NCBI GenBank assembly: GCA_023138875.1
Contig: JAGLOO010000015.1
Coordinates: forward strand, 124,001-188,000
DNA from: Bacteroidales bacterium
Lineage (GTDB): Bacteria; Bacteroidota; Bacteroidia; Bacteroidales; GCA-2748055
Direction: 5' to 3'
Length of the DNA stretch: 64,000 bases
Part shown: piece after piece, positions 42,043-62,187 of the stretch
How the letters are laid out: each line of letters opens with the position of its first letter
How positions within the stretch are numbered: position 1 is the stretch's first letter
Position numbers and translations under genes: made by a program
Notes under the pieces: generated by a model
Databases searched by the model: none
What the model saw: only the letters and a program-made list of their open reading frames with translations
What the model was told of the DNA's origin: nothing

Positions 42043-42052
42043 GCTACACAAA

Positions 42053-42644: not shown

Positions 42645-42720
42645 GGAGGGATAGGAAGTATAAATGACAAGTTATGAAACAAATTTGGATTATATTTAGG
42701 CATAGATCAACTTCTCGGCC

Positions 42721-42753
42721 ATGAAACGAAACAAGCGGAAACAGGTATCATGA
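42721..42753 (+). other. Ten-codon reading frame coupled to the CPBP gene
   Basis: An ATG at 42721 opens MKRNKRKQVS and ends at a TGA sharing bases with the CPBP start (ATGA at 42750-42753). The highly basic tiny peptide and exact overlap suggest translational coupling, but chance is quite possible. Confidence 0.25.
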
Positions 42754-43409: not shown

Positions 43410-43411
43410 TG

Positions 43412-43555: not shown

Positions 43556-43586
43556 AAGGAGGCTTCATATTGTTATTTTTGTCTTC

Positions 43587-44429: not shown

Positions 44430-44447
44430 ATACAAATAAGAAAAAGT

Positions 44448-45224: not shown

Positions 45225-45230
45225 ACAGGA

Positions 45231-45401
45231 TTATTCCCTGGCCTCATACCCTTTCAGGCAATCGGAACAGAGACAATCGGAATAAAGCTCCAGGATCTCC
45301 TGCATCGGAGCCCTGTGAATGTTTACCGATTCGCACCAGCAGTCCTCATCCCCCTCACATCGAAAGGATGATCCGCATTTCGGGCATTTTTTGTTGCTCA
45401 T
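45231..45401 (-). CDS. Cysteine-rich CWC-family small protein
   Basis: A 56-residue protein beginning MSNKKCPKCGSSFRCEGDED and continuing CWCES... with CLCSDCLKGY near the end. The CxxC, CWC and CxCxxC pattern matches the Cys_rich_CWC family, small probable zinc or metal-binding proteins of unknown role. The ATG lies one base after the folB stop, so it is co-transcribed with folB. Confidence 0.85.
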   Translation of the reverse strand: MSNKKCPKCGSSFRCEGDEDCWCESVNIHRAPMQEILELYSDCLCSDCLKGYEARE

Positions 45402-45402
45402 C

Positions 45403-45756
45403 CTATCTGCTCATTGTTACACCCACCGATTTAATGGGGCCACCCATGGGTGGATACATTTTCCTGATCCTCACTGTGGCCTTATTTATACCGTCCATTT
45501 CATCATACAGTGCATCGAGGATGCGTTTACCGATATTCTCCAGCAGGTTTGATTTTTTTCGGCGCATCTCCTTTTTGATCAGCTGATAGGCTAGCTGGTA
45601 GTTTACGGCATGCTCGAGCCGATCTGACTCAGCAGGCGTTTTAAGGTTTGTTTCAAGCTCCAGGTCCACCAGGAACCGGTTTCCCACAATCTGTTCTTCC
45701 TGGTAATGGCCATGGAATGCATAAAATTCCATCTCTTCAATAACTATTTTACCCAT
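45403..45756 (-). CDS. folB: Dihydroneopterin aldolase
   Basis: The 117-residue enzyme cleaves dihydroneopterin to 6-hydroxymethyl-dihydropterin in folate synthesis. The family signature EFYAFHGHYQEEQIVGNRFLVDLELE is present, with the conserved lysine-containing C-terminal strand (ATVRIRKMYPPMGGPIKSVGV). Length is normal. It leads a two-gene unit with the CWC protein. Confidence 0.92.
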   Translation of the reverse strand: MGKIVIEEMEFYAFHGHYQEEQIVGNRFLVDLELETNLKTPAESDRLEHAVNYQLAYQLIKKEMRRKKSNLLENIGKRILDALYDEMDGINKATVRIRKMYPPMGGPIKSVGVTMSR

Positions 45757-45824
45757 ATGCTTGAAGGTTTAATCAATAAGTATTTATAAAAATAATCATC
45801 TTATTCTATACGCATTTAGTAATT

Positions 45825-45983
45825 TCAGAACTCCGGATACAAATCAGCCTTAGCAAATATAATACTCTTTTCCAACGCTCTTATTTCATTGGAGCTTTTT
45901 CGGTAATGTGCAGCAAGCAAATTGGCAATGGCCGTTTCAGCTCTGTAACAGATTATCTTGATGATATTCTGCAATGGAGGACT
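45825..45983 (-). pseudogene. C-terminal remnant of a transposase
   Basis: A 53-codon minus-strand frame, lacking an ATG, reads IICYRAETAIANLLAAHYRK followed by SSNEIRALEKSIIF and ends at a TGA. The phrase CYRAETA with a following NEIRALEKSI stretch resembles the C-terminus of a common group of putative transposases. No terminal repeats or upstream catalytic domain remain. It lies in the gap between folB and the DUF1080 gene, near the edge of the polysaccharide island. Confidence 0.55.
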
Positions 45984-46003
45984 TCATAAACCTATTTCTT
46001 TTA

Positions 46004-46606
46004 TCATTTGATCTCCTGGATATTCAGGTTTCTCCACTGAACCTTTATGCCACTACCGGAGTGTATCTGAAGGGCGATTTTTCCAGTGGCCTTGCCGATT
46101 TTTTCATCCTCGAAGGTGATCATATTGATTCCGTTTAACCAGGTTTCTACCAGGTCGCCCTTCACAACAATTTTCATTTTGTTCCACTCACCGAATTTCA
46201 GATGCTTATCGAGTTCCGGGTCAGGCTTGATTAACCATCCCCTTCCGTAGGATTCGTAAATGCCCCCGGTGTTGCTGCCCGGAGGGGCCACTTCGGCTTG
46301 CCATCCTGTGATTCTGGTTCCTTCGATGGATGAGCGGAAGAATACCCCGCTGTTTCCGTCGGCACCCTGTTTGAATTCAAGGGTCAGTTCAAAATCTCTG
46401 TATTCCTTATCTGTCCCCAGGTATCCGTACTCTTTATCGGGACCACTCTCACACACCAGCAAGCCATCTTCCACATACCATTTTTCTGTTCCGTATATGG
46501 TCCAGCCCGCCAGGTCCTTTCCGTTAAAAATGGATTCCGATTGTGCAAAGATTACGCCTTGAAAGCAGAGAAGCAGCATGGCTGCGAGCAGGAATAGTAT
46601 TTTCAT
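46004..46606 (-). CDS. DUF1080 (3-keto-disaccharide hydrolase-like) secreted protein
   Basis: A 200-residue protein with a signal peptide (MKILFLLAAMLLLCFQGVIFAQ) and a concanavalin-like DUF1080 domain (SIFNGKDLAGWTIYG, DFELTLEFKQGADGNSGVFFRSS, GKIALQIHSGSGIKVQWRNL). Members bind or hydrolyse glycosides in the periplasm or at the surface. The substrate is unknown. Confidence 0.9.
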   Translation of the reverse strand: MKILFLLAAMLLLCFQGVIFAQSESIFNGKDLAGWTIYGTEKWYVEDGLLVCESGPDKEYGYLGTDKEYRDFELTLEFKQGADGNSGVFFRSSIEGTRITGWQAEVAPPGSNTGGIYESYGRGWLIKPDPELDKHLKFGEWNKMKIVVKGDLVETWLNGINMITFEDEKIGKATGKIALQIHSGSGIKVQWRNLNIQEIK

Positions 46607-46713
46607 TTTGAGTTGGCTTTTATATGAAGTTGTTATATGCGATCCGGGATATTATTCATATGTACACATTAAGATAGGGATTTTCAATAAAAGTATTGCT
46701 TACGACCCTCTTT

Positions 46714-47859
46714 CTAGGCCCGTTTGCGAAGCAAGAGGTCGTCAAATTTCGGGTGTTCGACTTCAAAGGAGGGTTTCTGATACAGTTTGTTCAAATACAC
46801 AGGGATATGGAACAGTATTGTGGCCAGGGCCAGGGTAGTGAGGATCAACACTTCTCCATTTATACTTCTGAACAGGAAGGGCATGGCGATAAACAGCACA
46901 TTGACCGATAAGATTATGAGGGTTACTTTAAGGTGGGACCCTCCCAAACGGAGCAACTGGTGATGAATATGTATCCGGTCAGCTACAAAAGGTGATCTCC
47001 CACGGAACATTCTAACCACCATAACCCTGGTCGTATCGAAAAGGGGGACAATAAATACGCAGAGCAACACTGCCGGGACTTGATGGTTTTGATGCAAGAA
47101 CAGAGTACTGTTCTCCATGTTCAGAAACCTGATTGCAAAAACAGAGAGCAGTAAGCCAATGATCATGGAACCAGTGTCTCCCAGGAATATCTTATTCTTC
47201 ATGCTGAAGACATTAAAATAGAAGAAGGCGAAGAGGGCAGCGGCCAGGATAAAACTCATGATGGCATAGGCCAGCGGTCCGTCCTGCAGGAAAACGATCC
47301 CAAAGAAAAGAGAAGCTAGTATACCAATCCCCGAAGCCAGTCCGTCGATCCCGTCAATCAGATTGAAGCTGTTGACCAGGGCCTGGAAAAGGATCCAGGT
47401 GATGGCGAGACTGAAAATGTACGGTAATTCTTGTATTCCAAAAAGACCATGGAGCGAAGTCAGGTAAAAATCGCCCGGCACCAGAATGATCAGTGCTGCA
47501 AGGGATTGCCCAATCAGCTTCTGATAGGCGGGAAGGGGCTGAAGATCATCCTTCAGTCCGACAAAAAAGAGAATGAGCATGCCGGCTATTATATATTTCA
47601 ATTCATGGGCAGTGGTGATGCCTGTAAATACAACAGATGAGATAATCACTCCGGCAAAAATGGCGATTCCACCCAGATTCGGGGTTGGATGGAGATGTGA
47701 AGTCCGGTCATTGGGTTGGGCCATCAGCCTTTTTTCTTTAGCTATTCTCACAATACTGGGTATAGCCGAGAAGGTGACCAGAAAGGTCATCAGGGCCGAG
47801 ATTCCAATCAGCAGAAAGGGAGGAATAAAAAGCTCGTATAATTCGGTATTAAATATCAT
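46714..47859 (-). CDS. WecA/TagO-type undecaprenyl-phosphate sugar-1-phosphate transferase, copy 1
   Basis: A 381-residue polytopic enzyme of the MraY/WecA family with about eleven membrane segments. Catalytic motifs are intact: VGLKDDLQPL, NSFNLIDGIDGLASG, FLGDTGSM and HIHHQLLRLG. It would start a polysaccharide by placing a sugar-1-phosphate, usually GlcNAc, on undecaprenyl phosphate. It is closely similar to the copy at 58427-59545 and to the broken copy at 59960-60893. Confidence 0.9.
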   Translation of the reverse strand: MIFNTELYELFIPPFLLIGISALMTFLVTFSAIPSIVRIAKEKRLMAQPNDRTSHLHPTPNLGGIAIFAGVIISSVVFTGITTAHELKYIIAGMLILFFVGLKDDLQPLPAYQKLIGQSLAALIILVPGDFYLTSLHGLFGIQELPYIFSLAITWILFQALVNSFNLIDGIDGLASGIGILASLFFGIVFLQDGPLAYAIMSFILAAALFAFFYFNVFSMKNKIFLGDTGSMIIGLLLSVFAIRFLNMENSTLFLHQNHQVPAVLLCVFIVPLFDTTRVMVVRMFRGRSPFVADRIHIHHQLLRLGGSHLKVTLIILSVNVLFIAMPFLFRSINGEVLILTTLALATILFHIPVYLNKLYQKPSFEVEHPKFDDLLLRKRA

Positions 47860-48177
47860 ATATTGCCTTTTTCTTAGATTGATTCAAACATATTGATTCT
47901 GATATGGTATCACATTGCGAATAATAAGATCATCTGCTCTTAACCAAAAACCGTACCAAATGGGAACTACCCTACATATATCAGGATGAAAACCAAGGTA
48001 AAAAGGTTGGGTGAACGGTTACATTTTCTTAATAGAAAGGAAAGGAAACAACGCTTTTTATCTGCGGAGGCATATCCATCCGGTTGATCTTGTGGGCTAG
48101 CCCGAGTTTCCGGGTTACTTAAAAATGACGGTGTAATATACTCATAAGTAATGACATACGATCATCATTTCATTCCC
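47860..48177. other. Gap without recognisable gene at the island edge
   Basis: No reading frame with protein-like content is visible. A short hairpin (CCCGAGTTTCCGGG near 48100) is present. The stretch separates copy 1 of the WecA-type gene from transposase and ATPase relics. Confidence 0.35.
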
Positions 48178-48402
48178 CTAAATTGCAATGTAGTCATTCA
48201 TTTCAAAGAGATCGAATAGCTTTTCTTGGATCTCGTCCATCTTGGTTAGCGTCCGGGTCTTCCGTTCCTTTTTATTTCCCTGTCCTTTCTGCTTAGGATA
48301 AATAATGATCACCTGTTTGATACCCTTCAGTGATTCATGTAGCCGGCCCAGCGACAAGTTTATGTTTTCTTCCCTGATTTTCATAATCATCAGCGCCCTC
48401 AT
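48178..48402 (-). pseudogene. Probable C-terminal remnant of an IS1634/IS4-like transposase
   Basis: A 74-codon frame encodes SLGRLHESLKGIKQVIIIYP followed by a basic stretch and TLTKMDEIQEKLFDLFEMND. This resembles the tail of IS1634-like transposases, as I remember them. No catalytic region is present. It could instead be a small uncharacterised protein. Confidence 0.45.
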
Positions 48403-48438
48403 CAGTAGCGTGATTGTACATTATAAGCCATGGACTTT

Positions 48439-48720
48439 GATTTTCTGGTCAGTCCAGGATTAAACCAATAAAATATTAGTGATCTGCTTTTTAGTGATGA
48501 ATTAAGTATGGTAAATAAGAGAGGAATCGCAGAGCAGTTTTTGGGTTTAGAGATATTGAAGAATGCTTCCTGTTACCATCAGACAGAACTTTTTTACTGG
48601 CACAGAGAAGCATTAAACAGCAATGCAGAAGTTGATTATTTAATCCAGTGAAACAATGAAATCCTGCCTGTTGAAGTGAAATCAGGATCAAAAGGCTCAA
48701 TGACATGCTCTTATCATCAA
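48439..48720 (+). pseudogene. C-terminal remnant of a DUF4143 AAA-type ATPase
   Basis: The frame through 48508 reads LLFSDELSMVNKRGIAEQFL, then ELFYWHREALNSNAEVDYLIQ, a TGA at 48649-48651, and NNEILPVEVKSGSKGS. This is the restriction-endonuclease-like end of the DUF4143 ATPase family (WHRE..NSNAEVDY...PVEVKSG). A second in-frame TAA is at 48469-48471. The N-terminal ATPase domain is missing. Two stops and truncation make it a relic. Confidence 0.8.
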
Positions 48721-48897
48721 AGGGATCCAGAAAATACGAGAAACCAACAGATATATTACAAAGGTTGGTTATTGAACTATGAAAAAGTCAAATGTAACTT
48801 ATATAGCATACTTATCAGCAGTGTAGTCCTGATCAGTATATTAACATACGGAGTTATTTTTTTGTTAACTTGTAATTTATACATGGAGGATACAAAA

Positions 48898-50610
48898 ATG
48901 ACAAAGTACAGATGGAGTCTCCTGATTGTTGGAAGTAGTTTATTGTTGCTTTCATCCTTTTCATTGGGATCTCTCAGAAACAATAATAAGTTGTTAGTAT
49001 ATGAATACGTAAAACCATTTCTGTGGGGTGAGAATACATCTGGACGTCCTGGATATAAGGATTTTAGTTTTTTTTTAGATTCCACTAAGCTTCATCCACT
49101 GGGCCTGGGTAGTTATGCCTTTTTCAATCTTTGGCAAGGTACAGAGGATAATAATCCCGAATTGCTCAATATCGGTAGAAAGTATATTGATTATCTGGCC
49201 CAAGATTATCCATTTGTTCAAAGGAATGGGAATGCCACTCTATATAACTACCCATTCACCCATAAAGAGTATAAGGCTGGTGAATGGCATTCCGGAATGG
49301 CAAACAGCATAATCGCTCTCTCATTTTTACAGGCCTATATAATTTTTGATGAACCATCCTATTTGCGGTATGCTGAGCAAGCTATGATGGGCGTTACGGA
49401 AGAAATAAGTAAAGGCGGAAGCGCACTAAAAGTTGAATCTGGTAAATGGTTCCTTGAATACGCTAGCAAAACTATCGATCACGACAAAGCAAGATTCGTT
49501 CTTAATGGGTTTCTGTATCAATTGCTGGCTCTGAAATTGTATTGCGATATCACAGGAGATGAATATTTTATTAAGGAATACAAGTCAGGTCTGCTTGCTT
49601 ATCAGGATTTGTACGAACAATTTCATTACGAATCAGGTGATTGGACCTATTATAGCCTGAATCCTAAAAGTGTTGAGACACCACATTATGTAATTTTTGA
49701 TATTATCCTACTGGATGCTCTCTACGAGTTGACCAATGAAACGGTGTTTAATGTTGAATCCAGTTATCGCAGAAACATTCTTAGAAAGCATTATAACCTG
49801 GAATCCATACCTTTAAACAGAAGACAGGGTATTTACTGTTTTTCACAGGTAGGCCCACCACATCCATATTGGGTAGATATATATCCTACAACCATTAGGT
49901 TCCTATCAGAAAATGATTCCAAAGAAATTTACCTGAAGAATCCACGTGAGGTTGGAGTTCCAATTGAATCAAGGTGTTTCAGTATCGATACTCTGACCAC
50001 TGATAAATACAGGATCGTGGAAGTCTGGGCAGTGTATCATTCCGATAGTGTACTTCTTTTCGAGAGTAAAATTGAAAATATTAAGCATGCTATCGAACCC
50101 GATATCTTTCCAGATTATGATCTTATGACCAATTTATTAGCTGAAAAAGAATCTTCAAAGCGGGCCATAATTCAAAACCCTGCCTCTGGAACGAATCTAA
50201 ACAGGGGTGCGATAAGTGTTCAATTTGATCAGGTATTTATTGGGAATAAGGATAAATACCTTGGGATAGTTATTAATAGTCAAAAGAAATTTACTTCCCT
50301 AAGAATATTTCTTACCAATACCTTGAATGAGAGAGCATCTCGATATTATCTTAATACTCTGGATTCTGGAAAAGATAACTTGATTCTGATTTCCGTCAAT
50401 GGTTTTGGAAATATTGAACAACTGACGAATACGAATTTTTCCTCATTGGAGCTTCATTTTTATAATGTCCCCCCTAAAGAAGATTCTCCGTATTCGATTG
50501 ATATTAAGAATGTTGTATTCTTCCAAAGCAATTATAATCTCCTCCATTTTCTCAAAAGAAGACCAGCTGTCATATTCACGGAAAAGAAGACTCCAGGGTT
50601 TTTATATTAG
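48898..50610 (+). CDS. D-glucuronyl C5-epimerase-family protein
   Basis: A 570-residue protein with an N-terminal membrane anchor or signal (MTKYRWSLLIVGSSLLLLSS). The C5-epimerase catalytic domain spans about residues 80-300: WHSGMANSIIALSFLQAYIIF, GKWFLEYAS, FVLNGFLYQLLALKLY, SGDWTYYSLNP, PHYVIFDIILLDAL. The last 200 residues look beta-sandwich-like. Such enzymes turn glucuronate into iduronate in glycosaminoglycans; the animal YHxxH-like segment is altered here, so the substrate may differ. The ATG at 48898 follows GGAGGA; earlier codons belong to the relic. It runs opposite to the polysaccharide genes and converges on them. Confidence 0.8.
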   Translation: MTKYRWSLLIVGSSLLLLSSFSLGSLRNNNKLLVYEYVKPFLWGENTSGRPGYKDFSFFLDSTKLHPLGLGSYAFFNLWQGTEDNNPELLNIGRKYIDYLAQDYPFVQRNGNATLYNYPFTHKEYKAGEWHSGMANSIIALSFLQAYIIFDEPSYLRYAEQAMMGVTEEISKGGSALKVESGKWFLEYASKTIDHDKARFVLNGFLYQLLALKLYCDITGDEYFIKEYKSGLLAYQDLYEQFHYESGDWTYYSLNPKSVETPHYVIFDIILLDALYELTNETVFNVESSYRRNILRKHYNLESIPLNRRQGIYCFSQVGPPHPYWVDIYPTTIRFLSENDSKEIYLKNPREVGVPIESRCFSIDTLTTDKYRIVEVWAVYHSDSVLLFESKIENIKHAIEPDIFPDYDLMTNLLAEKESSKRAIIQNPASGTNLNRGAISVQFDQVFIGNKDKYLGIVINSQKKFTSLRIFLTNTLNERASRYYLNTLDSGKDNLILISVNGFGNIEQLTNTNFSSLELHFYNVPPKEDSPYSIDIKNVVFFQSNYNLLHFLKRRPAVIFTEKKTPGFLY

Positions 50611-50657
50611 TATGGTAGATGGTGAATATGTATTTACCAATACTCTTCCTTTCTTTG

Positions 50658-51875
50658 TTAGTGAAATACAGCACTAATAATATCATACATTTTTTTTGCC
50701 AGTCTTTTTCGGTCGTATGTTTTAGCTAATTCCTGGCAACCCTTTTTTATGCTCTCTGTATCTGCCGACTCTGAGAAAAGCTTTTCGGTCTTATCAATAA
50801 AATCGGAAACATTTTCCGGTTCGTAATAGTAACCCGCGCCGAATTTTTCTACAATCCTACGCGCTTCTCCATCCACCCCAATTAATAGTGGAATTTGCAT
50901 AGCAGTTGCTTCAAAAATCTTGGAAGGAATAGCGCCTTTAAATAGATCACTTTTTCTTAAGTTAATTATGGCTGCATCAAGAACACTTAAGTAATCCATT
51001 ACCTCTTTCTTTGCTACTGAATCAAGCATAGTTACGTTGTGGATTTTCTCAGATTCTACTTTTTGAACCAGCTTGTTCTTTTCAGCCCCGTTGCCAATGA
51101 ACAAAAAATGAAATGAAGCGTCCTTTTTCTGCAATTGTCTGGCACAATCCAGAATGAAATCCAGTTTATGCGCCATTCCATGAGTTCCTAAATATCCCAA
51201 GACCTTTTTATTGTTCAGCTTAAGTTCCTTTACGATCTTCTCATTTTTGGATTGGGGTTGATATAAATCAAGATTGGCCCCATTATTTACAACATCAATT
51301 TTGTCAAATGGTATTCCTTTTTGATGGATTTTTTGTTTAAGGCCTTCAGTTACAGTTACTATCTTCTTTGAACTGCGGTAGCACCATTTCTCTTCTTTTT
51401 CAAAATACCTGATAATAATATTGTCTTTGATTGCCCCTACCGTTTTTATGGATTCGGGCCAGAGGTCCCGTACTTCCATGATCCAGGGTTTCCGTTTCCA
51501 AAAGGAGAGCGAACGACCCGCAAGTGCGGTAAAGAATTGTGGCGAAGTAGCTATAATTATATCTGCCTTTTCAAACAAACCGTGGATAAAAGCGGTCACT
51601 GAAAAAGAGATGAAGTCAAAGGTCCTTTTAAAAAAACCTTCATTTGCTGAGATGTAGCTCCAAACCCTGATGACTTTGATACCGTCAATCCATTCTGTTT
51701 TTTTCCAGCTGTTTTGATAACCATCATACACTTTCCCTTGAGGAAAATTTGGGAAACATGTAATAACCGTGATTTCAGCTCCGGCTTTCACCCATTCCTT
51801 GCAGTGTTCAATCGTCCGTGTCGCCGGGGCATTAACTTCAGGTGGAAAATTATCGGTTAAGAAAAGAATCTTCAT
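50658..51875 (-). CDS. GT4-family glycosyltransferase (WbuB/WcaI-like)
   Basis: A 405-residue GT-B transferase with the opening MKILFLTDNFPPEVNAPATR, the central IIIATSPQFFTALAGR and MEVRDLWPESI, and the C-terminal E-x7-E region (IPSKIFEATAMQIPLLIGVD). This pattern matches WbuB-like transferases that add N-acetyl-fucosamine or similar sugars. The acceptor and donor are unknown. It is the last gene of the minus-strand polysaccharide operon. Confidence 0.85.
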   Translation of the reverse strand: MKILFLTDNFPPEVNAPATRTIEHCKEWVKAGAEITVITCFPNFPQGKVYDGYQNSWKKTEWIDGIKVIRVWSYISANEGFFKRTFDFISFSVTAFIHGLFEKADIIIATSPQFFTALAGRSLSFWKRKPWIMEVRDLWPESIKTVGAIKDNIIIRYFEKEEKWCYRSSKKIVTVTEGLKQKIHQKGIPFDKIDVVNNGANLDLYQPQSKNEKIVKELKLNNKKVLGYLGTHGMAHKLDFILDCARQLQKKDASFHFLFIGNGAEKNKLVQKVESEKIHNVTMLDSVAKKEVMDYLSVLDAAIINLRKSDLFKGAIPSKIFEATAMQIPLLIGVDGEARRIVEKFGAGYYYEPENVSDFIDKTEKLFSESADTESIKKGCQELAKTYDRKRLAKKMYDIISAVFH

Positions 51876-51912
51876 TTAAAGAAGATTTATGAGATTGTTT
51901 TTTCGGTGGTCA

Positions 51913-53067
51913 TTATATAATACTCTTATAGAGATTTAATAGCTCTTTCTTCTCATTCTCCCAACTGTATTTAGTCTGAATCAATTCAATACCATTTTTT
52001 CCTTTCGCTTCAAGTTCTGCCTGATTCAGATTGATAATCTTGATAATGGAATTAACGATCGAATTAATATCCTCAGGATCACATACAGATCCAACGTTGT
52101 TCTGGACGACTATCTTTTTCCATAGATCGAAATCAGAACAAAGTATTGGCAATCCTGCCGACATATATTCGAATATCTTATTTGGCAAAGCTTCTATATG
52201 ATTTTTCATAGGTTTAAATATACAAATACCACACACAGCCTTGCTAAATTCCATAGCCATCCGGGATCTTGAGATAGTCCCTAGGTATTCAACGTATTTC
52301 CATCCGCCCAATGCTTCTAACTCTTCTTTATAAGAGACAGGATATATCGGACCAGCCAGTACCAGTTTAATCGGCTCTTTAGTATTAGCTATTTCAATGG
52401 CATTCACCAGATTTGTTATATTCCTGATTTCGGTTATGCCCCCCACATAAATAAAAGTAGTTGATTGAGCGGAACTACCTGGAGCCTGACCGGATAATAA
52501 TTCCTGCCGGTAGGGATAGTTATAAATGACCTTTACGTTTTCAAATCTCCTGGTATCATAAGAAGTTTTTATCGATGGTGTTGCTGTGATAATCAAATCA
52601 AACCGCCTACAGAGTATATTCTCAATGTGTTTATAAAGGAATGATAATACCTTGCGTGCAAATCCGGATAAATACGGCTTTTCAGAAATGGTATCTACAT
52701 AGTTTTCGTGAACATCGTAGATCACCTTCTTGCCTGTAATCTTTAAGAGAGCACCACAAACTATAAGGTCAGGATCATGAAAATGATAAACACTGCATCT
52801 CTTATTGATCCGGAAGAACATACCAAAGGAACGTATGAATCTTCCAATACGTCGTTCTATATTAAAACCCTCATTATACACAACTGTCAGGTTGGGATGA
52901 GTAGCTTTGTCCTTCCGTGGGTTCGCGTTGGATATATCCTGGCCATATTGATTAGTATAATACAATACCTTGTAACCTGCCTTCAGCAGGGTCATCACCT
53001 CTTTTCTGAAAATCCTGATATCATTTGCAGGATGAGTAGAGGTAAATACACATATGTCATATTCCAT
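51913..53067 (-). CDS. GT4-family glycosyltransferase
   Basis: A 384-residue GT-B enzyme beginning MEYDICVFTSTHPANDIRIF. It has the middle region IIYDVHENYVDTI, written here in the family's usual form VIYDVHENY, and the donor-site GLPILCSDFDLWKKIV after ALPNKIFEYMSAG. It would add one sugar of the repeat unit. The ATG at 53067 is used in preference to a GTG at 53082 that overlaps the previous stop. Confidence 0.87.
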   Translation of the reverse strand: MEYDICVFTSTHPANDIRIFRKEVMTLLKAGYKVLYYTNQYGQDISNANPRKDKATHPNLTVVYNEGFNIERRIGRFIRSFGMFFRINKRCSVYHFHDPDLIVCGALLKITGKKVIYDVHENYVDTISEKPYLSGFARKVLSFLYKHIENILCRRFDLIITATPSIKTSYDTRRFENVKVIYNYPYRQELLSGQAPGSSAQSTTFIYVGGITEIRNITNLVNAIEIANTKEPIKLVLAGPIYPVSYKEELEALGGWKYVEYLGTISRSRMAMEFSKAVCGICIFKPMKNHIEALPNKIFEYMSAGLPILCSDFDLWKKIVVQNNVGSVCDPEDINSIVNSIIKIINLNQAELEAKGKNGIELIQTKYSWENEKKELLNLYKSII

Positions 53068-53078
53068 TTTTGATAACT

Positions 53079-54827
53079 TCACCTTTTTATGATTCTCATT
53101 GTTGGATCTACAAAGATAACCTCACCAGTAATACTGTCAGGTTCATTGGTGTGATGTTTTCCAAGTGTCAGAACGAGAAGTGCCCTTCCTTTAACTGTTG
53201 TAGTGTTTATCGACAGGAACTGCCATTGGTCTCTGATTTTCATGTTAGCGTAGTGATCATTGGGTTTTTGAATTTGTCCCCTGCCAGATATTCTGACTTG
53301 ATCTCCATTGAAACTCTCCCCAATATAACAGTATACTGTTAAGACAACACTGTCTCCATTTCTTACATTACTCTCGTTAATGATGGACTGGGCAAACAGA
53401 TTACCTTTCAATTGTTTCTCAAAACTATTTTTATTCAGAAGACATCCTTTGGTGTCAACCGAAATGTCATCCGGGATATCTCCAGGTAAATTCCGGTACT
53501 CTATTTCGCTATGATCCAGAGACATGTAGGTGGATGGGTCAGTTGAATCGAATTTAATTATTTGTTTGCTTAGGATTCCAAATAAGATCAGGAAACAGAG
53601 GGAGGCTATCAAGGTAGTATAGAATATCTTTATCTTATATGGAGAAATATGAATTTTGGTGGGAGGAAACAGAAAAAAAGTTGTAAAAAGAATTACCCCT
53701 GATAGTCTGTAGAGTATTACCTCAAAAAGCATTGTGAATGAGAAAAGGAGTGGGAGCCCAAACCTCATGAGATTTGGCATATTCTTATTGCTCAAAACAT
53801 AAACAAGCATAATGCCCAGAACTATAATTGGACCTACTACTCCGCAATCGAGCCAACTCTGGATGAACTGATTATGTGCATCAGGTCTGAGCTGAAATTG
53901 AATAACTCTTTCCAGTTGCGCAGTGGATTCAATCAAAAGATATTGGCCATCTCCAAGTCCATATCCGAAAACCGGACTCTCTTTAATTAAGCCCCAGGCA
54001 GCTTTCCATAAATCATACCTGACGTTGGACATGATTACTTCAAACACAGTGGATTCGCTGGTGATGTAATTTGATAGCCTCGGGTGAAAGGAAAACAGAA
54101 GCGTATAACAAGTTATAAGAAGAAGAGAAATAAAAAATGACTTTCTGAATTCCCAGGATATATATACCTGCATTATTAATATTATGGAGTATACAAGAAT
54201 AATTGATCTGGCTCCTAATAAGAATAGTATCGCCCAGATTAATATGGCATAGAGTATCCTTATCAAATAAAAATTTTTGAAACCAGCAGTGTTAAAAGCA
54301 CTGTTGAAACTCAGATAGCCAGCTATAAGAGCTATCCCGATATATGTCCTGTGATTGTAATCATGAAGGAGATTGTGAAGAATCCTGATTGAATTAGACG
54401 AAACGAAATCAAGGTCGCTAAACAACAGGGGATAGACCAAGCCTGCAGCAATATAGATAATGATAAAAAGGTTCCCGGCGATGACGCCCTGATAGAAATG
54501 GGGTGATAAATCTCTAATACGCTCCTGGCCATAGATAATCACAACCATTGGTATTATTACTAGGACAAGCTGAGTAGTGCTTTTGGTTAATCCAAATTGT
54601 AGGTTCAAGGAATATATCAGACTAAGAAAGCCTGTAAGAAACAATGAAATAAATAAAAGAGCTAAAGCAATACCTTTTTTGGATATGCGGTATTGATTTG
54701 TTATTGCAATGATGATTTGTAGAGAAACGAATAGAAACACAATCTTCGATTGTATCCAGATGGGCAAGCTAAGAGAGATACCCAATACAATGAACGAATA
54801 TTTTTGGATCAGCCTGTTATCTCTCAT
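53079..54827 (-). CDS. O-antigen ligase/Wzy_C-family protein with extra C-terminal domain
   Basis: A 582-residue protein. The first 420 residues hold about eleven membrane segments with the Wzy_C signature GYGLGDGQYLLIE and the periplasmic loop RPDAHNQFIQSWLDCGVVG. These proteins either ligate glycans to lipid A core or polymerise repeat units. Residues 430-582 form a soluble, beta-rich tail (DDISVDTKGCLLNKNSF, NGDSVVLTVYCYIGESF, ALLVLTLGKHH) that is not part of the usual family. It overlaps the next upstream gene by 11 bases. Confidence 0.82.
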   Translation of the reverse strand: MRDNRLIQKYSFIVLGISLSLPIWIQSKIVFLFVSLQIIIAITNQYRISKKGIALALLFISLFLTGFLSLIYSLNLQFGLTKSTTQLVLVIIPMVVIIYGQERIRDLSPHFYQGVIAGNLFIIIYIAAGLVYPLLFSDLDFVSSNSIRILHNLLHDYNHRTYIGIALIAGYLSFNSAFNTAGFKNFYLIRILYAILIWAILFLLGARSIILVYSIILIMQVYISWEFRKSFFISLLLITCYTLLFSFHPRLSNYITSESTVFEVIMSNVRYDLWKAAWGLIKESPVFGYGLGDGQYLLIESTAQLERVIQFQLRPDAHNQFIQSWLDCGVVGPIIVLGIMLVYVLSNKNMPNLMRFGLPLLFSFTMLFEVILYRLSGVILFTTFFLFPPTKIHISPYKIKIFYTTLIASLCFLILFGILSKQIIKFDSTDPSTYMSLDHSEIEYRNLPGDIPDDISVDTKGCLLNKNSFEKQLKGNLFAQSIINESNVRNGDSVVLTVYCYIGESFNGDQVRISGRGQIQKPNDHYANMKIRDQWQFLSINTTTVKGRALLVLTLGKHHTNEPDSITGEVIFVDPTMRIIKR

Positions 54828-56097
54828 AATTCTTTAAACAGAAGAATGCAAAAATGATCAGAAAGGCATATCCATGTGTAAGCAGCAGCGTTCCAAGAGA
54901 TGCCGAATTGAAATAGAAGATATATGAAAAAATGATACCAAAGAAAATGTGATTGATGTTCATTCTGTCCAATAGCAGAAAGGTGTAGGATATGATAGAG
55001 GAATTTATAATTACACCTATCCAGCCCATGCTTAGAAACCCATCCGGTACAACGCCTACATTTGCATTTAATCCTTCAATCCCAATGACTTTCTCTCCAA
55101 CAAACCGAGATAGAGATAAACCATAGTCTGCCTCACCAATAAACGATAAGATTGAATGGGTGTAATAGGTCTTTTCGTGAATACGAAAGTAATTATAATA
55201 TACCTCCTCCATTAGAGGAGGTATGAATAACACCCTGCGTATCAGGATGAACTGAATTGCAGAGAAATCGAATATCTTATACTCAAGAATCCCTAGAAAT
55301 ATAAGGAGTATCAATGTGATGGCAAAGAACTGAAGTTTATACTTATAGGTTGTTCCCAGGTAGAAAAACAGGGCAACAAAGATGCCGAAGTATATACTTT
55401 TCGAGGCTCCACTGGCCAGGTATAGATATGTAGTTAGCATTACAACTAACAGGAGTATCAACTTCTTGTTTTGCTGAATGCTCACGACAATTATTGCCGG
55501 TAACAAAACCCGGGAGAGAGGTAGAAGTAAATACGTTGAACCTTTAAAATGCTCAATCTCTCTGAATAAGAATCTGGTGGTGTATATATCTTTAAACCAT
55601 AAATTCTTTATGTTGATATAGGGCAGGTAGTAAAGAAAGGGTAAGAACAGGGCAATTGCAATGGCCAGAATTATTGTTTGGTTTGGATCTTGCTCAATAT
55701 TGATAACCTTGCTCTTCAAGTTGTGTACCCTTAGCTTAGAGAATAGGAAAAGGATAAAAAGGAAAACCATGTATCCAACGGATGCACGCAGGTCGCCGCT
55801 ACTATATGTATAGAAAATGAGTTGAGGGAACAGGCAAATAATTAGTATTATATGCCAGACAGTATGTAGAAGCCCTGCATTTATCCACGAGCCCGCCTGA
55901 ATGAAAAGCAGAACGAATAGCATCGAAATCAACAACCTGTGAAATCGAAAATCATTATGAAATCCCATATACTCAAAGGCAGGTGATACTACGACTACAT
56001 AGGAGAGGATCAATAAGAAGAATACCATCAGTTCCAATATTTGGATACTAATAGTATTCGAAAATGATAGTTTTTTTTCTCTAATGGATAGTCTCAT
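54817..56097 (-). CDS. Polytopic membrane protein, probable O-antigen polymerase (Wzy)
   Basis: A 426-residue protein with about twelve hydrophobic segments, AT-rich coding sequence and little conserved sequence, typical of Wzy. The short loop FIGEADYGLSLSRFVGEKVIG and context between wzx and the ligase-like gene support the role of joining repeat units on the periplasmic face. Overlaps of 17 bases with wzx and 11 bases with the ligase-like gene indicate one operon. Confidence 0.68.
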   Translation of the reverse strand: MRLSIREKKLSFSNTISIQILELMVFFLLILSYVVVVSPAFEYMGFHNDFRFHRLLISMLFVLLFIQAGSWINAGLLHTVWHIILIICLFPQLIFYTYSSGDLRASVGYMVFLFILFLFSKLRVHNLKSKVINIEQDPNQTIILAIAIALFLPFLYYLPYINIKNLWFKDIYTTRFLFREIEHFKGSTYLLLPLSRVLLPAIIVVSIQQNKKLILLLVVMLTTYLYLASGASKSIYFGIFVALFFYLGTTYKYKLQFFAITLILLIFLGILEYKIFDFSAIQFILIRRVLFIPPLMEEVYYNYFRIHEKTYYTHSILSFIGEADYGLSLSRFVGEKVIGIEGLNANVGVVPDGFLSMGWIGVIINSSIISYTFLLLDRMNINHIFFGIIFSYIFYFNSASLGTLLLTHGYAFLIIFAFFCLKNYER

Positions 56098-57364
56098 TTG
56101 CTTCTTTTTGATATTTAGCGATGCTTAATGAGATAATAATCAGGTAAATAGAGTACATGCCTATCAGACAGATATTGTAGTATTTAAGATATGACTCAAT
56201 GGATTGGAATTGTAGAAAAAACAATGAGCCAATCACTAGAAATTTCATTAGTTGCCAGATCGAATTTAATTTAACCTTTTGAAGCGCAATTAGTATCTGA
56301 CCAAATGGTGATATAACAAAAGTGAAGCAGGTACTTAAAATGAGGCTTTTAGCATACATGCCTGAAGTTCTCCATTCATCTCCAAAAACCCATCCAAAAA
56401 TGTCTGTTCCCCAGAAATAGATTGTAATAAAAAAGGGTATGGTGATTAGAGCGCTGAATGCCAGTAAGCCGATGAAGAGTTTGCTTATTGAAGACCGGTT
56501 GTTATATGCAGTTGAGAAACGTTGTAAGATTACCTGTCCCAATGAAACCCCAATCAAGGCAGTTGGGATCGTAAGCATTCGTTGTGTTAATTCTGCATAT
56601 CCTACCTCTTCAATGGAAAATTTGGCAAATATCTGAAATGTAAGAGCACTTAGAATGAATGTGTTTAACAGGTTAGAACCGAAGGCGTATTTTGGGAAAT
56701 CTGAAAAATTTCTGGCGTTCTTTTTAATACCCAATAAAAGATCTGCAGGAAGGTGCGTACGCACCTCTTTTCTTAATCTAAGAAATCCAACCAGAGCAGC
56801 AGAAAAATTCCCTATTGCCTCACCAAGTGGTAAGCCCCAAAAAGATCCGGATAAACCAGATCCTGCCTGAACCAGACCTTCAGTACCCCGACGGTAAATT
56901 TTCAGGGTTGATGAAGCTATGAAGCGCTTCTGCCGGATGAACATAAACTGCGATGCTGTATTGATCATGAAGAATAGTGCTGAAAGAGGAACTAAATAAA
57001 CGATTAAAGAGTATTTTTTTGGAATGTTCAGAAGTTCGATTCCCACAGAGTTAAGTATGATCAAAACCAGTTCTGTAACCAGAAACAGTCCAAACCCAAG
57101 AATAATAATACCTGTGTAGATCGTGGCAGAATCGCTTCTTTTTTTACAAAGAATGATAGCTCCCTCATATTTAAAAGAGAAAATAAGGGCCAATATACCC
57201 ACAGATCTGAAATAGAGGTCAAATACTCCAAACTCTTCAACGGTAAATATCCTTTTAAGTAATGGTTGTAACAGGATAGGGATTAGCTGCGCAATAAATG
57301 TACCCCCCATCAGGAAGCTCAAATCTTTGAATATGTCCCTTTTTAAGAAGTGAAGCGGATTCAT
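56081..57364 (-). CDS. Oligosaccharide flippase (Wzx/MOP family)
   Basis: The 427-residue membrane protein has about twelve segments and the MOP-type N-terminus (LSFLMGGTFIAQLIPILLQPLLKRIFT followed by EEFGVFDLY, quoted in parts). It would flip the lipid-linked repeat unit across the inner membrane. Location between the Wzz-like and Wzy-like genes gives strong context. Confidence 0.88.
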   Translation of the reverse strand: MNPLHFLKRDIFKDLSFLMGGTFIAQLIPILLQPLLKRIFTVEEFGVFDLYFRSVGILALIFSFKYEGAIILCKKRSDSATIYTGIIILGFGLFLVTELVLIILNSVGIELLNIPKKYSLIVYLVPLSALFFMINTASQFMFIRQKRFIASSTLKIYRRGTEGLVQAGSGLSGSFWGLPLGEAIGNFSAALVGFLRLRKEVRTHLPADLLLGIKKNARNFSDFPKYAFGSNLLNTFILSALTFQIFAKFSIEEVGYAELTQRMLTIPTALIGVSLGQVILQRFSTAYNNRSSISKLFIGLLAFSALITIPFFITIYFWGTDIFGWVFGDEWRTSGMYAKSLILSTCFTFVISPFGQILIALQKVKLNSIWQLMKFLVIGSLFFLQFQSIESYLKYYNICLIGMYSIYLIIISLSIAKYQKEANETIH

Positions 57365-57421
57365 GAAAATGTGCTAGAACAAACAGCGCATAGCGGGGTT
57401 AGGGTTGACTCATTATCGATT

Positions 57422-58390
57422 TCAAGGAATCCAGATTTTTTTTCTGTATGTTACAATTACTGCGAGCAGTAGTGCTAGTCCCAGATAGTACCAGATCAAT
57501 CTTTTAGCGTATCGAATGGTTCCGTTACCAGGTTCAACTGGTACTGTAAATCCTTCCAATATGGTAACTACATCATTATAGATGTTTAAATCTCTTTCAC
57601 ATTCCTGTTTCAATTCCAGCAGTTTAAACATATCATGATGATAGATCCTTACGATCTTTTCAGAAGTAAAAACGATCTGCCCCTCTTTCTGTCTTATATC
57701 ATCCGTATTTGTATAATACTCTCTTTTCTGCAGACTGTCGAGTTTCTCAATTTCATATTGTGTCTGATTTAGCTGTGCTTCCAGATCCGATAGTCGCTGT
57801 TTGTTGAGGGCTTTGAAAAATGGGTTTGCTTCCAGGTAGTGTAACAGACCTCCCTCCATTTTCATAAGAATATTGGGATCATATACCGCTGCACGAACAA
57901 CAAAGACAGAATCGATCTTCACTATAGAAGTGTCGGATAGAAATTTGCCTTCTGTATCAATGCCGTCAAAAATACCATCGCCACCAATATCATAATACCA
58001 GAAAGTTTCAAGTCCTTTAATTGCGCTAGCATCCTCCAAACTTAGATTAAGTTCGTTTGAAAGGGTGGCATAGTTGCGGGTGTTGGCATAATCCCCCAGT
58101 TTATCAAGGCTGAACATGATTGGCTGATTACGGGTAGCATTAGATCTCAGGATCAGATCGGAACAATAGTATGAATCTGAGATATTATTCAAGATCAGTG
58201 CTGATATCACCGTTAACAATGCTGCGACGACCAGATAGTACCACTTTCGAAGTAGAAATATCAGGACAGATCCAATGACATTGATAAGTTTCAGGATTGC
58301 TTTCTTCATAAACTCACCCATCTTTAGGAACAATTTATAGAGGTCAATCTCATCTTGATTTGGGCTATTTTTATTTGAATCAGTGGTCAT
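57422..58390 (-). CDS. Wzz-type polysaccharide chain-length/co-polymerase protein
   Basis: A 322-residue protein with a membrane segment near residue 52 (WYYLVVAALLTVISALIL) and another at 298-314 (LIWYYLGLALLLAVIVTY). The periplasmic part between them has a long helical stretch (LNKQRLSDLEAQLNQTQYEIEKLDSLQ). This two-segment, coiled-coil plan is that of Wzz proteins. It lacks a tyrosine-kinase domain. It sits between the copy 2 WecA-type gene and wzx. Confidence 0.82.
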   Translation of the reverse strand: MTTDSNKNSPNQDEIDLYKLFLKMGEFMKKAILKLINVIGSVLIFLLRKWYYLVVAALLTVISALILNNISDSYYCSDLILRSNATRNQPIMFSLDKLGDYANTRNYATLSNELNLSLEDASAIKGLETFWYYDIGGDGIFDGIDTEGKFLSDTSIVKIDSVFVVRAAVYDPNILMKMEGGLLHYLEANPFFKALNKQRLSDLEAQLNQTQYEIEKLDSLQKREYYTNTDDIRQKEGQIVFTSEKIVRIYHHDMFKLLELKQECERDLNIYNDVVTILEGFTVPVEPGNGTIRYAKRLIWYYLGLALLLAVIVTYRKKIWIP

Positions 58391-58426
58391 ATTGAAAGAA
58401 TCGAAGTAAGATGCAAAAATAACTAA

Positions 58427-59545
58427 TTAAAGGGAGTTCGAAAAGGTTTTTTCACTGCGTATTTGATTTCGCCTTTTTAGGTAAACAGGTATATAGGATG
58501 ACGCAGCTGCTAATACCAGGATAATCACGATTAATAACTCTGTGTTAATATTCCTGAAAATGAGTGCAATGGCAATAAATATCACATTAACTGATAAAAT
58601 AATGGCAGTTGCCTTTATATGGGACCCACTTAAATCAAGTAACCTGTGATGAATATGTGTTCTGTCTGCTTCAAATGGAGATTTACCTCTAAGAATACGT
58701 AGAATAAATACCCGTGCTGTATCAAAAACAGGAATAATAAGAACACTAAGTAAAATTGCGGGGGCAGATTGACTTTCATTAAAGAATAGACTACTATTCT
58801 CATAATTCAGAAACCTGACTACAAAAATGGCGAGAAGTAAACCAATTAACATTGCACCGGTATCTCCGAGAAATATCTTATTCTTCTCGCTGAAAACATT
58901 AAAATAGAAAAAGGTAAGCAGGGAGGATGAAAGTATAAAAGTCATGATTGCATATGCCAGGTGGTTATCCCTCAGGAACACGATACCAAAGAAAACTGAA
59001 GTTAAAATACCAATACCCGATGCAAGGCCGTCAATTCCGTCAATCAGATTGAAGCTGTTTATAAGTGCCAGAGCTATAATAAATGTTATTACAAGGCTTA
59101 AACCGTAGGATAGTTCATTTATTCCGAAAAGTCCATGTAGAGATGTAAGATGAAAATCACCCGGGACCAGAATAAATAGGATGGCAACTGTTTGACCGAT
59201 AAACTTCTTATAAGCAATCATGGGGTAAAAATCATCCTTCAATCCAACAAAAAAGATGATGATCATTGCAGCGATAATGTATTTCAACTCATGTGCAGTG
59301 GCTATTCCGGTAAATAATATCGATGATATGATAACACCGGCAAAAATCGCTACTCCCCCAAGGTTTGGAGTTGGATTGGTATGAGATGTCCGGCCATTGG
59401 GATTGGCCATCAGGCCTCTTATTTTTGCCACCCTTACAATAGAAGGGATTGCAATAAATGTGACCATGAAAGAGAATAGAACTGATATTCCGATCAGGAC
59501 ATAAGGGGGCAGAAAAACCTCATAGAATTCAGTATTATATAGCAT
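58427..59545 (-). CDS. WecA/TagO-type undecaprenyl-phosphate sugar-1-phosphate transferase, copy 2
   Basis: This 372-residue enzyme is a near relative of copy 1 (46714-47859), with all motifs intact: VGLKDDFYPM, NSFNLIDGIDGLASG, FLGDTGAM, HIHHRLLDLSG. It leads the minus-strand operon wzz-wzx-wzy-ligase-glycosyltransferases and is the likely initiating transferase for that locus. The coding sequence is more AT-rich than copy 1. Confidence 0.9.
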   Translation of the reverse strand: MLYNTEFYEVFLPPYVLIGISVLFSFMVTFIAIPSIVRVAKIRGLMANPNGRTSHTNPTPNLGGVAIFAGVIISSILFTGIATAHELKYIIAAMIIIFFVGLKDDFYPMIAYKKFIGQTVAILFILVPGDFHLTSLHGLFGINELSYGLSLVITFIIALALINSFNLIDGIDGLASGIGILTSVFFGIVFLRDNHLAYAIMTFILSSSLLTFFYFNVFSEKNKIFLGDTGAMLIGLLLAIFVVRFLNYENSSLFFNESQSAPAILLSVLIIPVFDTARVFILRILRGKSPFEADRTHIHHRLLDLSGSHIKATAIILSVNVIFIAIALIFRNINTELLIVIILVLAAASSYIPVYLKRRNQIRSEKTFSNSL

Positions 59546-59819
59546 AATGGTTGATTTCCCGTATCGTTGGCTGCATAGAAGTAGTAGATATTTCAGTTCA
59601 GTTTTTTTATTCTATCAACTGATCTTGAAGATTAGTGTCGCAATACTGTTTACTCAACCTAAGTTTATATATCAGTTTTCCCATAATCATGATGTTCTTA
59701 ATCATAGATGATTTCTTTGTAATATCGGTTGCGTTGAAGTATTTCCGCCTGCTGCGTGACCAAGGGACCGAGTTATACAGAGAGTTTGTTGCTCCTGTAG
59801 TAACGCTTGTAATGTGAAG

Positions 59820-59935
59820 CAAATTCTCTTTGCATAAATTTCAGTCGTTTGGACAGATACATGTCCAAGAATACCCCTTGTATATACCAGATTCACTCCA
59901 GCCTGCAGTAAATGCATTGATTTCGAATGGTAGAC
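59820..59935 (-). pseudogene. C-terminal remnant of a tyrosine recombinase (integrase)
   Basis: The frame encodes HSKSMHLLQAGVNLVYTRG, then ILGHVSVQTTEIYAK. This matches the end of tyrosine integrases, with the GHVSVQTTEIYA motif containing the nucleophile Tyr; the usual leading arginine is lost at the junction. It is fused in frame behind the degraded WecA-type copy. Beyond it (59607-59820) the frames carry no recognisable domain. Confidence 0.75.
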
Positions 59936-59960
59936 ACCCTGGTAAATAATTACACAAATT
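59932..59960 (-). mobile_element. IS66-like end at the WecA/integrase junction
   Basis: The plus-strand sequence GTAGACACCCTGGTAAATAA near 59931 closely resembles the right end of the IS66 remnant near 61921 (GTAGCATACCCTGGTAAACA). The element end lies exactly between the WecA-type relic and the integrase relic, so an insertion event probably joined them. Confidence 0.5.
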
Positions 59961-60893
59961 TTACTAATATCAACATTTCGTTTGGTTTTACGATTTACTA
60001 AGAATACTGGTATATAGGAAAAAACCGATGCCATAACAAGAATAATAATTATGAGAATATCGTTTTTTACTCCATTAAAGATCAGTACAAAAATAATGAA
60101 CAGGATATTTACAATTATAACTCTCAAAGCATCAAATACAGGTACTATTAAAATATAAAGCGCGATTGCTGAAGTTGAAGAAATACTCAATATCTCTGTT
60201 GTATTATTCTCAAATTCTATAAACTTTACAACAAAAACAGTCACAAAAAATCCTATTATCATAGATCCGGTATCACCAAGAAAAATCTTATTGCTTTTGC
60301 TAAATACAGCATATGCTATATGTTTTGACATTACAAACCAGATTCCGAATGACAATGAACAAATTATCCCGACTCCCGAAGCCAGACCATCAATTAGATT
60401 AAAACTATTGATCAGTGCCATAAACACTATTGAACTTAAGATTACGCTTGCTATATCCAATTTCTCCAATACCAAAAAAGCCGTGCATATTGGCAATCCG
60501 AATATCTCCAAACACGACAACAATGAGCGTAGCTAAAAATTGACCGGACAGTTTAGATATTGGCTTCACATATAAAATATCATCTTTAAGTCCCAAATAA
60601 AAGAGGACTATCATGCCAGCGATAATATACTTCAGTTCATGTGTTAATGCGATACCGGAAAATAAAACTGAAGATATAATTACACCTGAGAAGATAGCTA
60701 CACCTCCAAGATTTGGTGTTGGCAGGTGATGAGATGTTCTTCCATTTGGATTATCATATAGTCCCTTCAGCTTGGAGATCCTGACTATTATTGGAATACT
60801 GAACAGTGTAATCAATAATGATACAAGAAACCCAGATATGATAAGAAGCCACTCAGGCACGAAAATTTCTATTATATCTACTGTGAAATTCAA
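59960..60893 (-). pseudogene. Degraded third WecA/TagO-type transferase
   Basis: The first part (60893 to about 60450) encodes an intact N-terminus (NPNGRTSHHLPTPNLGGVAIF, HELKYIIAGM, LGLKDDILYV). A frameshift near 60450 moves the sequence to another frame. There three in-frame losses remove key parts: NLIDGIDGLASG is reduced to NLIDGLASG, about 17 residues are missing before SNKIFLGDTGSM, and the whole HIHH segment is gone after VPVFDALRV. The protein cannot be active. The C-terminus then runs into the integrase relic. It is a broken paralogue of copies 1 and 2. Confidence 0.85.
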
Positions 60894-61087
60894 TATCTGA
60901 TTTTTGTAGATTTTTCTTCGGACTATCTTATTAACACATACTTCACAAATTCATCCCAGTCAGGTGCAAATTCCCGTGTTTGTGAGCAGTCTGTTTGTAA
61001 AGATCGTCAAAAAGAACAGGTCAAAAGTTATCTGTTTTGTTAAGTGGTGTTTTGTTGAATTCCATAATTTAAAGATAGGTAATTATT

Positions 61088-61953
61088 GTAAATACGTAAC
61101 TGTTTAGCTGCTACTCAAAAATAAGAGAAATTCGGTGGTTATCAACAAATAGTGAACTGGTTTTACTTTCTGTTTTACCAGGATCTCCAGAATCAAGTGG
61201 TATCAATATTTTCACGGTATATTCAGCCTCTCAGCAATGCTACAAAAGGCTTAAAGAGACAATAGAGATTATCAAATCAAAAATCATTGAGGCGATTACA
61301 GCCCATGCCGATGAAACCGGGATGCGGGTAGAGGAAAGACTACGCTGGCTGCATGTGGCAACTACAGAGTTGTACACCTACCTTTTCGTATATGAGAAAC
61401 GAGGGAAACTGGCATTAGAAAGCGAGCAATCCATTCTGGATGAGCTTACCGGATGGCTGGTCCATGATTGCTGGAGCATCTATTTCAACTTCAAGGGAAT
61501 GCATCATGCACTTTGCGGGGCACATATCCTCAGAGAGTTGGAAGGTCTGATAGAAAATGAACAAAGTAAGTGGGCCAGGGTTTTATAACCTTCCTGATGC
61601 ATGTGTTTGAGATGCCCCTTGAGGAAAGGATCAGACGACGGCAGCAAATTGAAGCCAGGTATACCATGATCTGTGGTATGGGAGAAAGTTGCTGTACTTG
61701 CATTCGCTTTCAACGAAGAAGTGCCTTTTATCAATAAGCTGGCTGAAAGAGATCTCAGACCAGCTAAGGTCAAACTGAAAGTATCCAATTGCTTTCGTTC
61801 TTTCGAAGGAGCAGAAATATATGCCAGGATCGCAGGCTTTGTTTCAACGGCCCGCAAGAACAACCGGAACGTCTATTCCGAATTATACTCTACCTTTAGT
61901 GGACACAACTTCATTACACGGTAGCATACCCTGGTAAACAGTTACGTAAATAC
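61088..61953 (+). mobile_element. Decayed IS66-family insertion sequence
   Basis: A transposase relic spans about 61162-61924. It holds the DDE-type parts HADETGMRVEERLRWLHVA, LTGWLVHDCWSIYF, CGAHILRELEGLIENE, then after a frameshift at about 61588 FLMHVFEMPLEERIRRR. After a further break it continues with VPFINKLAERDLRPAKVKLK and ARIAGFVSTARKNNRNVYSE. The ends carry an inverted repeat: GTAAATACGTAACTGTTTA at 61088-61106 and its mirror at 61935-61953 (17 of 19 matching). About 25 residues near the middle are missing, and tnpA/tnpB-like genes are absent. The element is inactive. No clear target duplication was seen. Confidence 0.85.
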
Positions 61954-62187
61954 TACATAAACTGGCCCATAAAAATCGGCTCAATTGCAAGAATATGCAT
62001 CTGATTGTGAATACGAGGGTATCATAAGTGAATCCTGTGAGCGCATTACTTGTGCCTTTATCTTGTTCAGTTCACTCTGAATATTGTCACCCAATTCATC
62101 AGCATTGACCATTTTAACCTCTGTTTTGGTCAATGTATAATTAGTTGGTATATTGAGAGTGCTACCCTGTAGGTAAAAGATTGAATA
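61954..62187. other. Gap before glnS without clear gene
   Basis: The minus strand has a stop-free stretch reading NADELGDNIQSELNKIKAQV, which could be a relic of an unknown gene. The rest of that frame is antisense to glnS. Nothing else is recognisable. Confidence 0.3.

Follow-up and report, generated by a model that had tools for sequence, protein, structure and literature searches.

The window analysed here, a stretch of 64,000 nucleotides from a Bacteroidales bacterium (contig JAGLOO010000015.1, positions 124,001 to 188,000), holds a gene for a homologue of the animal glucuronyl C5-epimerase GLCE next to an operon for Wzx/Wzy-dependent polysaccharide assembly (Table 1). The epimerase frame encodes 570 residues without an internal stop and opens at an ATG with GGAGG shortly upstream. 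Pfam finds one family in the protein, C5-epim_C (PF06662), over residues 114–285 and at 100.2 bits against a gathering cut-off of 23.3, and a single hydrophobic segment is predicted at the N terminus. An earlier note, made from the letters alone, had proposed both a GLCE-family homologue and a membrane anchor, and both proposals hold, the former on this score and on a barrel whose best structural match is GLCE. The same note had placed the gene at a Wzx/Wzy locus with two glycosyltransferases. An initiating transferase (PF00953), a flippase (PF13440) and a polymerase-type protein (PF04932) do lie together there with two GT4-type genes, so the neighbours are as described, but the epimerase gene and the operon converge, the operon's last gene ending 47 bp away, and the epimerase gene is not one of its members. 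Homology and locus are both solid.

Table 1. Features in and around the polysaccharide locus (positions counted from the first nucleotide of the window; TM, transmembrane)
Feature	Position	Strand	Evidence and remarks
Insertion relative to genus relatives	45757..62187		folB–glnS gap of 16,431 bp
WecA-like transferase, copy 1	46714..47859	-	PF00953, 3.4e-36; host-like GC, 46%
C5-epim_C protein, 570 aa	48898..50610	+	PF06662, E 1.3e-28; anchor 8–26, barrel ~57–300, C-terminal extension ~300–570
GT4-type glycosyltransferase	50658..51875	-	PF00534, 3.2e-15; PF13439, 9.2e-13
GT4-type glycosyltransferase	51913..53082	-	PF00534, 5.8e-17
Wzy_C polymerase/ligase-type membrane protein	53079..54827	-	PF04932, 5.3e-16, residues 193–336; 9 TM segments
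Candidate Wzy polymerase	54817..56097	-	10 predicted TM segments; topology; no family match
Wzx-type flippase	56081..57364	-	PF13440, 4e-14
Wzz-like chain-length regulator	57422..58390	-	TM 44–62 and 297–315; position
WecA-like initiating transferase, copy 2	58427..59545	-	PF00953, 1.4e-32
Third WecA-like gene, two overlapping frames	59702..60893	-	PF00953 in both frames; integrase-like tail

The five catalytic residues of human GLCE, given as E499, Y500, N510, Y560 and Y578 in PMC13308652, are all kept as E187, Y188, N203, Y252 and Y264, both in the family alignment and in a profile alignment to human GLCE, in which the chain 6i01 has F at the Y578 position. The acid and the tyrosines, whose absence the earlier note had named as grounds for giving up the idea, are thus in place. 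Across 110 relatives the same residue occupies these five columns in 110, 92, 106, 104 and 108 sequences, respectively, in a comparison set that leans to consensus, 80 of its rows having been chosen by motif and the remainder by profile. The scan behind those 80 demanded a short LNG-type motif, so that their conservation of N203 and G204 is partly selected; of the 31 relatives found by profile, 27 have N at the N203 column and 4 have D. When 14 family members, one of them the window protein, are combined into a profile, human and zebrafish GLCE are matched at E values of 8.5e-51 to 7.4e-49.

Around this set the window protein is the most divergent of the 111 compared. It departs from the family at 19 of 41 conserved columns (those at least 80% conserved among the other family rows), the next being L071 with 16, and its end branch measures 4.14 changes per column, the next longest 1.97. 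The changes include E186L (E in 108 of the 110 relatives), Q136N (107), R145Q (106), P129E (101) and H268D (H in 95); E186 is the first Glu of the EEY motif, adjacent to the catalytic E187. The altered His-containing segment noticed earlier is therefore real, but the histidine replaced at 268 does not belong to the listed catalytic set of GLCE. All five catalytic columns fall within the 22 that are kept, for which the random chance is 0.035, uncorrected for differences in constraint between columns. Because the catalytic set survives amid so many changed columns, we read the divergence as selection on the chemistry with rebuilt substrate contacts, in which case the changed columns would line the substrate site. 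The earlier suggestion that the substrate may be new gains strength from this and keeps its "may". So many lost conserved columns and so long a branch would also fit a degenerate, non-catalytic glycan binder, for example a partner of the polymerase or ligase; given the intact frame and the placement of all five catalytic residues among the kept columns, we consider such a protein unlikely. Enzyme activity is likely.

An AlphaFold2 model built from a family alignment of 63 sequences (A3) is confident across most of residues 61–300 and poor elsewhere (mean pLDDT 59.2, with 288 residues below 50, including nearly all of 309–543). With the modelled barrel as query, ranks 1 to 8 in Foldseek are all GLCE, and in VIA-align 2 GLCE reaches Z 24.2–24.9, followed by a GH76 mannanase with Z 17.8. 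The best superposition (Z 24.9) covers 256 residues at a root-mean-square deviation of 3.9, and thus the protein has, in a model made with the family alignment, an (alpha/alpha) GLCE-like catalytic barrel. Identity as a glycoside hydrolase or a GlcNAc 2-epimerase was rejected, since these folds rank well below GLCE in the structure comparison. Three weak matches were likewise set aside as other barrels or chance: the two PF06662 matches elsewhere in the genome, on C63 (L002) and C3 (L003), which score best as GH88/GH127-like and as GlcNAc 2-epimerase, respectively, and a tblastn match in the same class (L060, a 674-aa frame, E 3.2e-4), which is a GH127 protein (PF07944, 3e-112) found by chance or through a shared barrel. 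The three-domain architecture of animal GLCE is not reproduced. In the model only ~57 residues precede the first barrel helix, and helices 67–83 and 87–103 follow directly on one another where ~170 residues separate the matching stretches of the GLCE chain (137 and 310), so that the beta-hairpin and central beta-sandwich domains do not fit.

The C-terminal extension of ~270 residues has no Pfam match. Modelled alone from its single sequence it is beta-rich (mean pLDDT 43, pTM 0.40), and Foldseek returns 0 matches to this model at E ≤0.001; the best 50 rows (E 0.009–0.067) contain many carbohydrate-binding modules and also unrelated proteins, which is a lead and not evidence of fold. Tblastn of 395 genomes of the phylum gave no match past residue 290 except the window's own. 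In 393 genomes of the order the extension found, apart from itself, a single match (L245, E 9e-4 over 59 aa); it belongs to a protein of 5'-nucleotidase type (PF02872) and was likewise put down to chance or a shared barrel. Polysaccharide lyases have a similar architecture, in which a beta-rich C-terminal portion comes after the barrel, with the proviso that both C-terminal models are of low confidence, and the Y560/Y578 pair of GLCE is described in PMC8006597 as an arrangement that DS-epi1, heparinase II and alginate lyase also have. The protein might then abstract the C5 proton with its Tyr pair and proceed to beta-elimination, trimming or releasing chains in the periplasm. Yet sequence and fold favour GLCE by a wide margin over the other (alpha/alpha) folds listed, no Pfam lyase family matches either the whole protein or the extension, and a lyase strikes us as unlikely.

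The block between folB and glnS that contains the epimerase gene is an insertion, probably acquired horizontally. In six relatives of the genus (those of 17 with a gltX match and a near-whole glnS match on one contig; G006, with a partial glnS, was left out) the gap between folB, labelled by PF02152, and glnS, labelled by TIGR00440, measures 71, 2337, 266, 74, 48 and 83 bp. The epimerase gene has a G+C content (GC) of 36.7%, the operon one of 37.6% and the third WecA copy one of 34.2%, against 45.7% upstream (30000–45756) and 48.4% in glnS. At the left edge of the block lie the first WecA copy and a 3-keto-disaccharide hydrolase gene, both of host-like GC (46–48%), a pair also present in the relative G009 (L242). 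The tail of the third WecA-like gene is similar to the terminal part of tyrosine recombinases (PF00589, E 0.0059, under the cut-off), and 59702–60893 is possibly a mobile-element scar at the cassette edge. Pairs of WecA and Wzz genes in G003 and G002 (L240:6758–8849 and L241:8854–10972), 77–78% (to WecA copy 2) and 66–69% (to Wzz) identical to those of the window, head gene sets that otherwise show no blastp similarity to the window at E 1e-8, an arrangement reminiscent of serotype-switch loci. Given the short folB–glnS gaps and these pairs heading unlike gene sets, the block appears to be one of a number of interchangeable cassettes for surface polysaccharides. Within the operon, the Wzz-like protein has no match in Pfam or NCBIfam; its topology and position fit Wzz. 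We also observe that the Wzy_C protein carries, past its last predicted TM segment, a tail of ~160 aa (53079–53630) with no Pfam match over cut-off, so that two proteins of the locus, this one and the epimerase homologue, have tails without an assigned family.

A scan of genome contigs, which gave 154 stretches and 120 relatives, shows that C5-epim_C proteins commonly occur in sugar loci across many lineages; the best 80 of these, taken as the named set, come from Acidobacteriota, Bacteroidota, Planctomycetota, Nitrospirota, Bacillota and others. Nearer to the window, PF06662 was found at E ≤1e-8 in 1 of 28 genomes of the taxonomic family, the window's own, and in 16 of 393 genomes of the order sample, own included. 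In the phylum sample 46 of 395 genomes match at E ≤0.001; 14 matches, own included, are strong (E <1e-25), and the remaining ones score 19–30 bits, near or below the cut-off. Strong frames span 311–354 aa in the phylum sample and 300–348 aa in the order save one of 215 aa (L078), compared with 652 for the window frame. No close relative of the window protein emerged from a single-sequence search of genome contigs or from tblastn of plasmids, and tblastn of 61 genomes returned the window's own match only; metagenome and viral contigs lay outside these searches. A few longer relatives (L146 and L151, 489 aa; L167, 465 aa) match the window protein only in the barrel. As a separate observation, L146 and L151 are near-identical anchored proteins (tree distance ~0.08) from metagenome-assembled genomes assigned to Spirochaetota and Bipolaricaulota, which suggests misbinning or recent transfer.

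A simple rule based on hydrophobicity and a lipobox marks 13 of the 111 family members as anchored, the window protein and 12 of its 110 relatives, and these 13 rows require 3 changes on the tree against a shuffled mean of 12.5 (0 of 500 shuffles as low). That the anchored members form one clade with the window protein was not upheld, its placement being unsure given its branch length. Among relatives' loci of at least 8 kb (n = 93, after 14 of 107 shorter ones were dropped), scored against a small local reference set and with at least one contig counted twice (L079, L094), a GT4-like gene is present in 61, a WecA-like gene in 21, a Wzx-like gene in 8 and a gene resembling nucleotide-sugar dehydrogenases in 6. 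A GT4-like gene occurs in 0 of 10 control loci, a small set all from the same genus and genome, one of which (L010) held the dehydrogenase and short-chain dehydrogenase/reductase (SDR) genes for which it was fetched. The closest parallel to the window is the locus of the lipobox-bearing L019 (in L048), which has a Wza-type gene on one side and a Wzx-type gene on the other, Wzy_C and Wzz-type genes being no more than ~8 kb away. The substrate of the window protein might be unrelated to the operon and the position of its gene incidental to a patchwork island, for the island has three WecA copies and an integrase-like remnant, the gene is convergent, and some anchored relatives lie outside polysaccharide loci; set against this are a GC as low as the operon's and unlike that upstream, the short distance to the operon's last gene and the frequency of GT4-like genes around relatives, and we rate such a coincidence as rather unlikely.

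The earlier note had seen no UDP-glucose dehydrogenase in the window and proposed a search of the genome, which now reveals two strong UDP-sugar dehydrogenase genes, both beyond the window, on contigs C2 and C7. On C2 a TuaD/UDP-glucose 6-dehydrogenase-like gene stands beside an SDR gene, rmlA, rmlC and rmlD; we take the SDR to be UDP-xylose-synthase-like, its NCBIfam matches being sub-cut-off only. On C7, the window's contig, ~10.5 kb ahead of the window, a TviB-like dehydrogenase gene is grouped with galE, rmlB and a gene for a GFO/IDH/MocA-type oxidoreductase. These rmlB-, galE-, TviB- and GFO/IDH/MocA-type genes form one run (L008:6133–10474), possibly an amino-hexuronate pathway. The genome can probably make UDP-glucuronate and perhaps also an N-acetylated UDP-hexuronate. 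It has one Sulfotransfer_3 gene, on another contig.

Taken together, the anchor, the island and the family context lead us to favour a periplasmic, polymer-level hexuronate C5-epimerase for the glycan of this cassette as the best single account, to which we give slightly better than an even chance. We posit that the gene arrived with a low-GC, horizontally acquired surface-polysaccharide cassette and that its GLCE-type product would be held in the inner membrane by its N-terminal helix with the barrel in the periplasm. Wzx would flip lipid-linked units, the Wzy-type enzyme would join them, and the epimerase would then invert C5 of hexuronates in the chain, glucuronate or an N-acetylated hexuronate, with the Tyr pair Y252/Y264, together with E187, Y188 and N203, taking off and giving back the C5 proton; the glycan may be bound or oriented by the C-terminal extension.

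Several observations weigh against this account. The convergent orientation leaves co-expression with the operon only presumed, and no relative with the C-terminal extension was found in the searches described above. The loss of family-wide residues (E186L, Q136N, R145Q, H268D) could mean changed chemistry or lost activity. Both dehydrogenases score below their equivalog cut-offs (TviB, 463 of 592 bits; TuaD, 537 of 700), and the uronate supply genes lie ~59 kb away or on another contig. With the small reference set, 32 of the 93 relatives' loci lack a GT4-like gene. Among the anchored relatives whose surroundings were inspected, L022, L067 and L068 lie outside polysaccharide loci: L022 is flanked by genes for FAD-dependent oxidoreductases, and L067 and L068, from two genomes of one family (L085:9599–12548 and L086:7402–10420), adjoin SDR and malate/lactate dehydrogenase genes, possibly reflecting a different role for this fold. 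Anchored L077 adjoins two Band_7 genes; a sugar locus containing another relative, L066, is ~4 kb away. A further possibility, though an unlikely one, is a two-domain GLCE-type periplasmic epimerase that brings its own module for glycan binding and edits the chains made by Wzy at a hexuronate different from glucuronate, for example an N-acetylated one in view of the TviB-like dehydrogenase. If true, it would be a bacterial counterpart of Golgi heparan editing within an exchangeable surface-polysaccharide cassette.

Animal GLCE (PDB 6HZZ, 6I01, 6I02, 4PW2, 4PXQ) shares with the window protein the catalytic barrel, the five catalytic residues and a single N-terminal anchor, GLCE being a type II membrane protein. 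In contrast, identity is only 17–18%, a Glu beside the catalytic Glu has become Leu, and the window protein has an extra C-terminal extension and no room for the two further animal domains. Prokaryotic C5-epim_C proteins (L013–L025, L061–L078, L094–L173) resemble it in family, catalytic columns and sugar-gene surroundings; in the samples of the order and the phylum nearly all their frames are 300–354 aa long, and few of the relatives are anchored, whereas the window protein is anchored and extended. AlgG, a periplasmic alginate C5-epimerase with a beta-helix fold, would work alike in epimerizing C5 of a polymer in the periplasm, although it differs in fold, lies outside the family and is synthase-dependent rather than Wzy-dependent. 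The glucuronyl C5-epimerase of Bermanella marisrubri RED65 (Raedts 2013), likened here by published description and not by sequence, is also bacterial, and its alignment suggests a GLCE-like mechanism according to PMC13308652. The same paper (2026) counts only one bacterial D-glucuronyl C5-epimerase identified by activity. It also describes Agl32 of Halobacterium salinarum, which makes iduronate on a lipid-linked glycan without the GLCE catalytic residues and with a fold closest to AGE-type epimerases, whereas the window protein keeps the GLCE set.

Among the titles and abstract openings listed, in a search that left most subscription journals outside, none dealt with a Wzx/Wzy locus containing a PF06662 protein. 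C5-epim_C proteins in sugar loci are widespread in the scan of genome contigs, and the novelty here is the strong divergence around a kept catalytic set, the anchor and the orphan second half. An anchored, far-diverged member that keeps the catalytic set amid rebuilt surroundings, next to a defined polysaccharide operon, would reveal how this fold shifts its choice of substrate, and could give enzymes for glycans bearing iduronate or other L-uronates outside animals.

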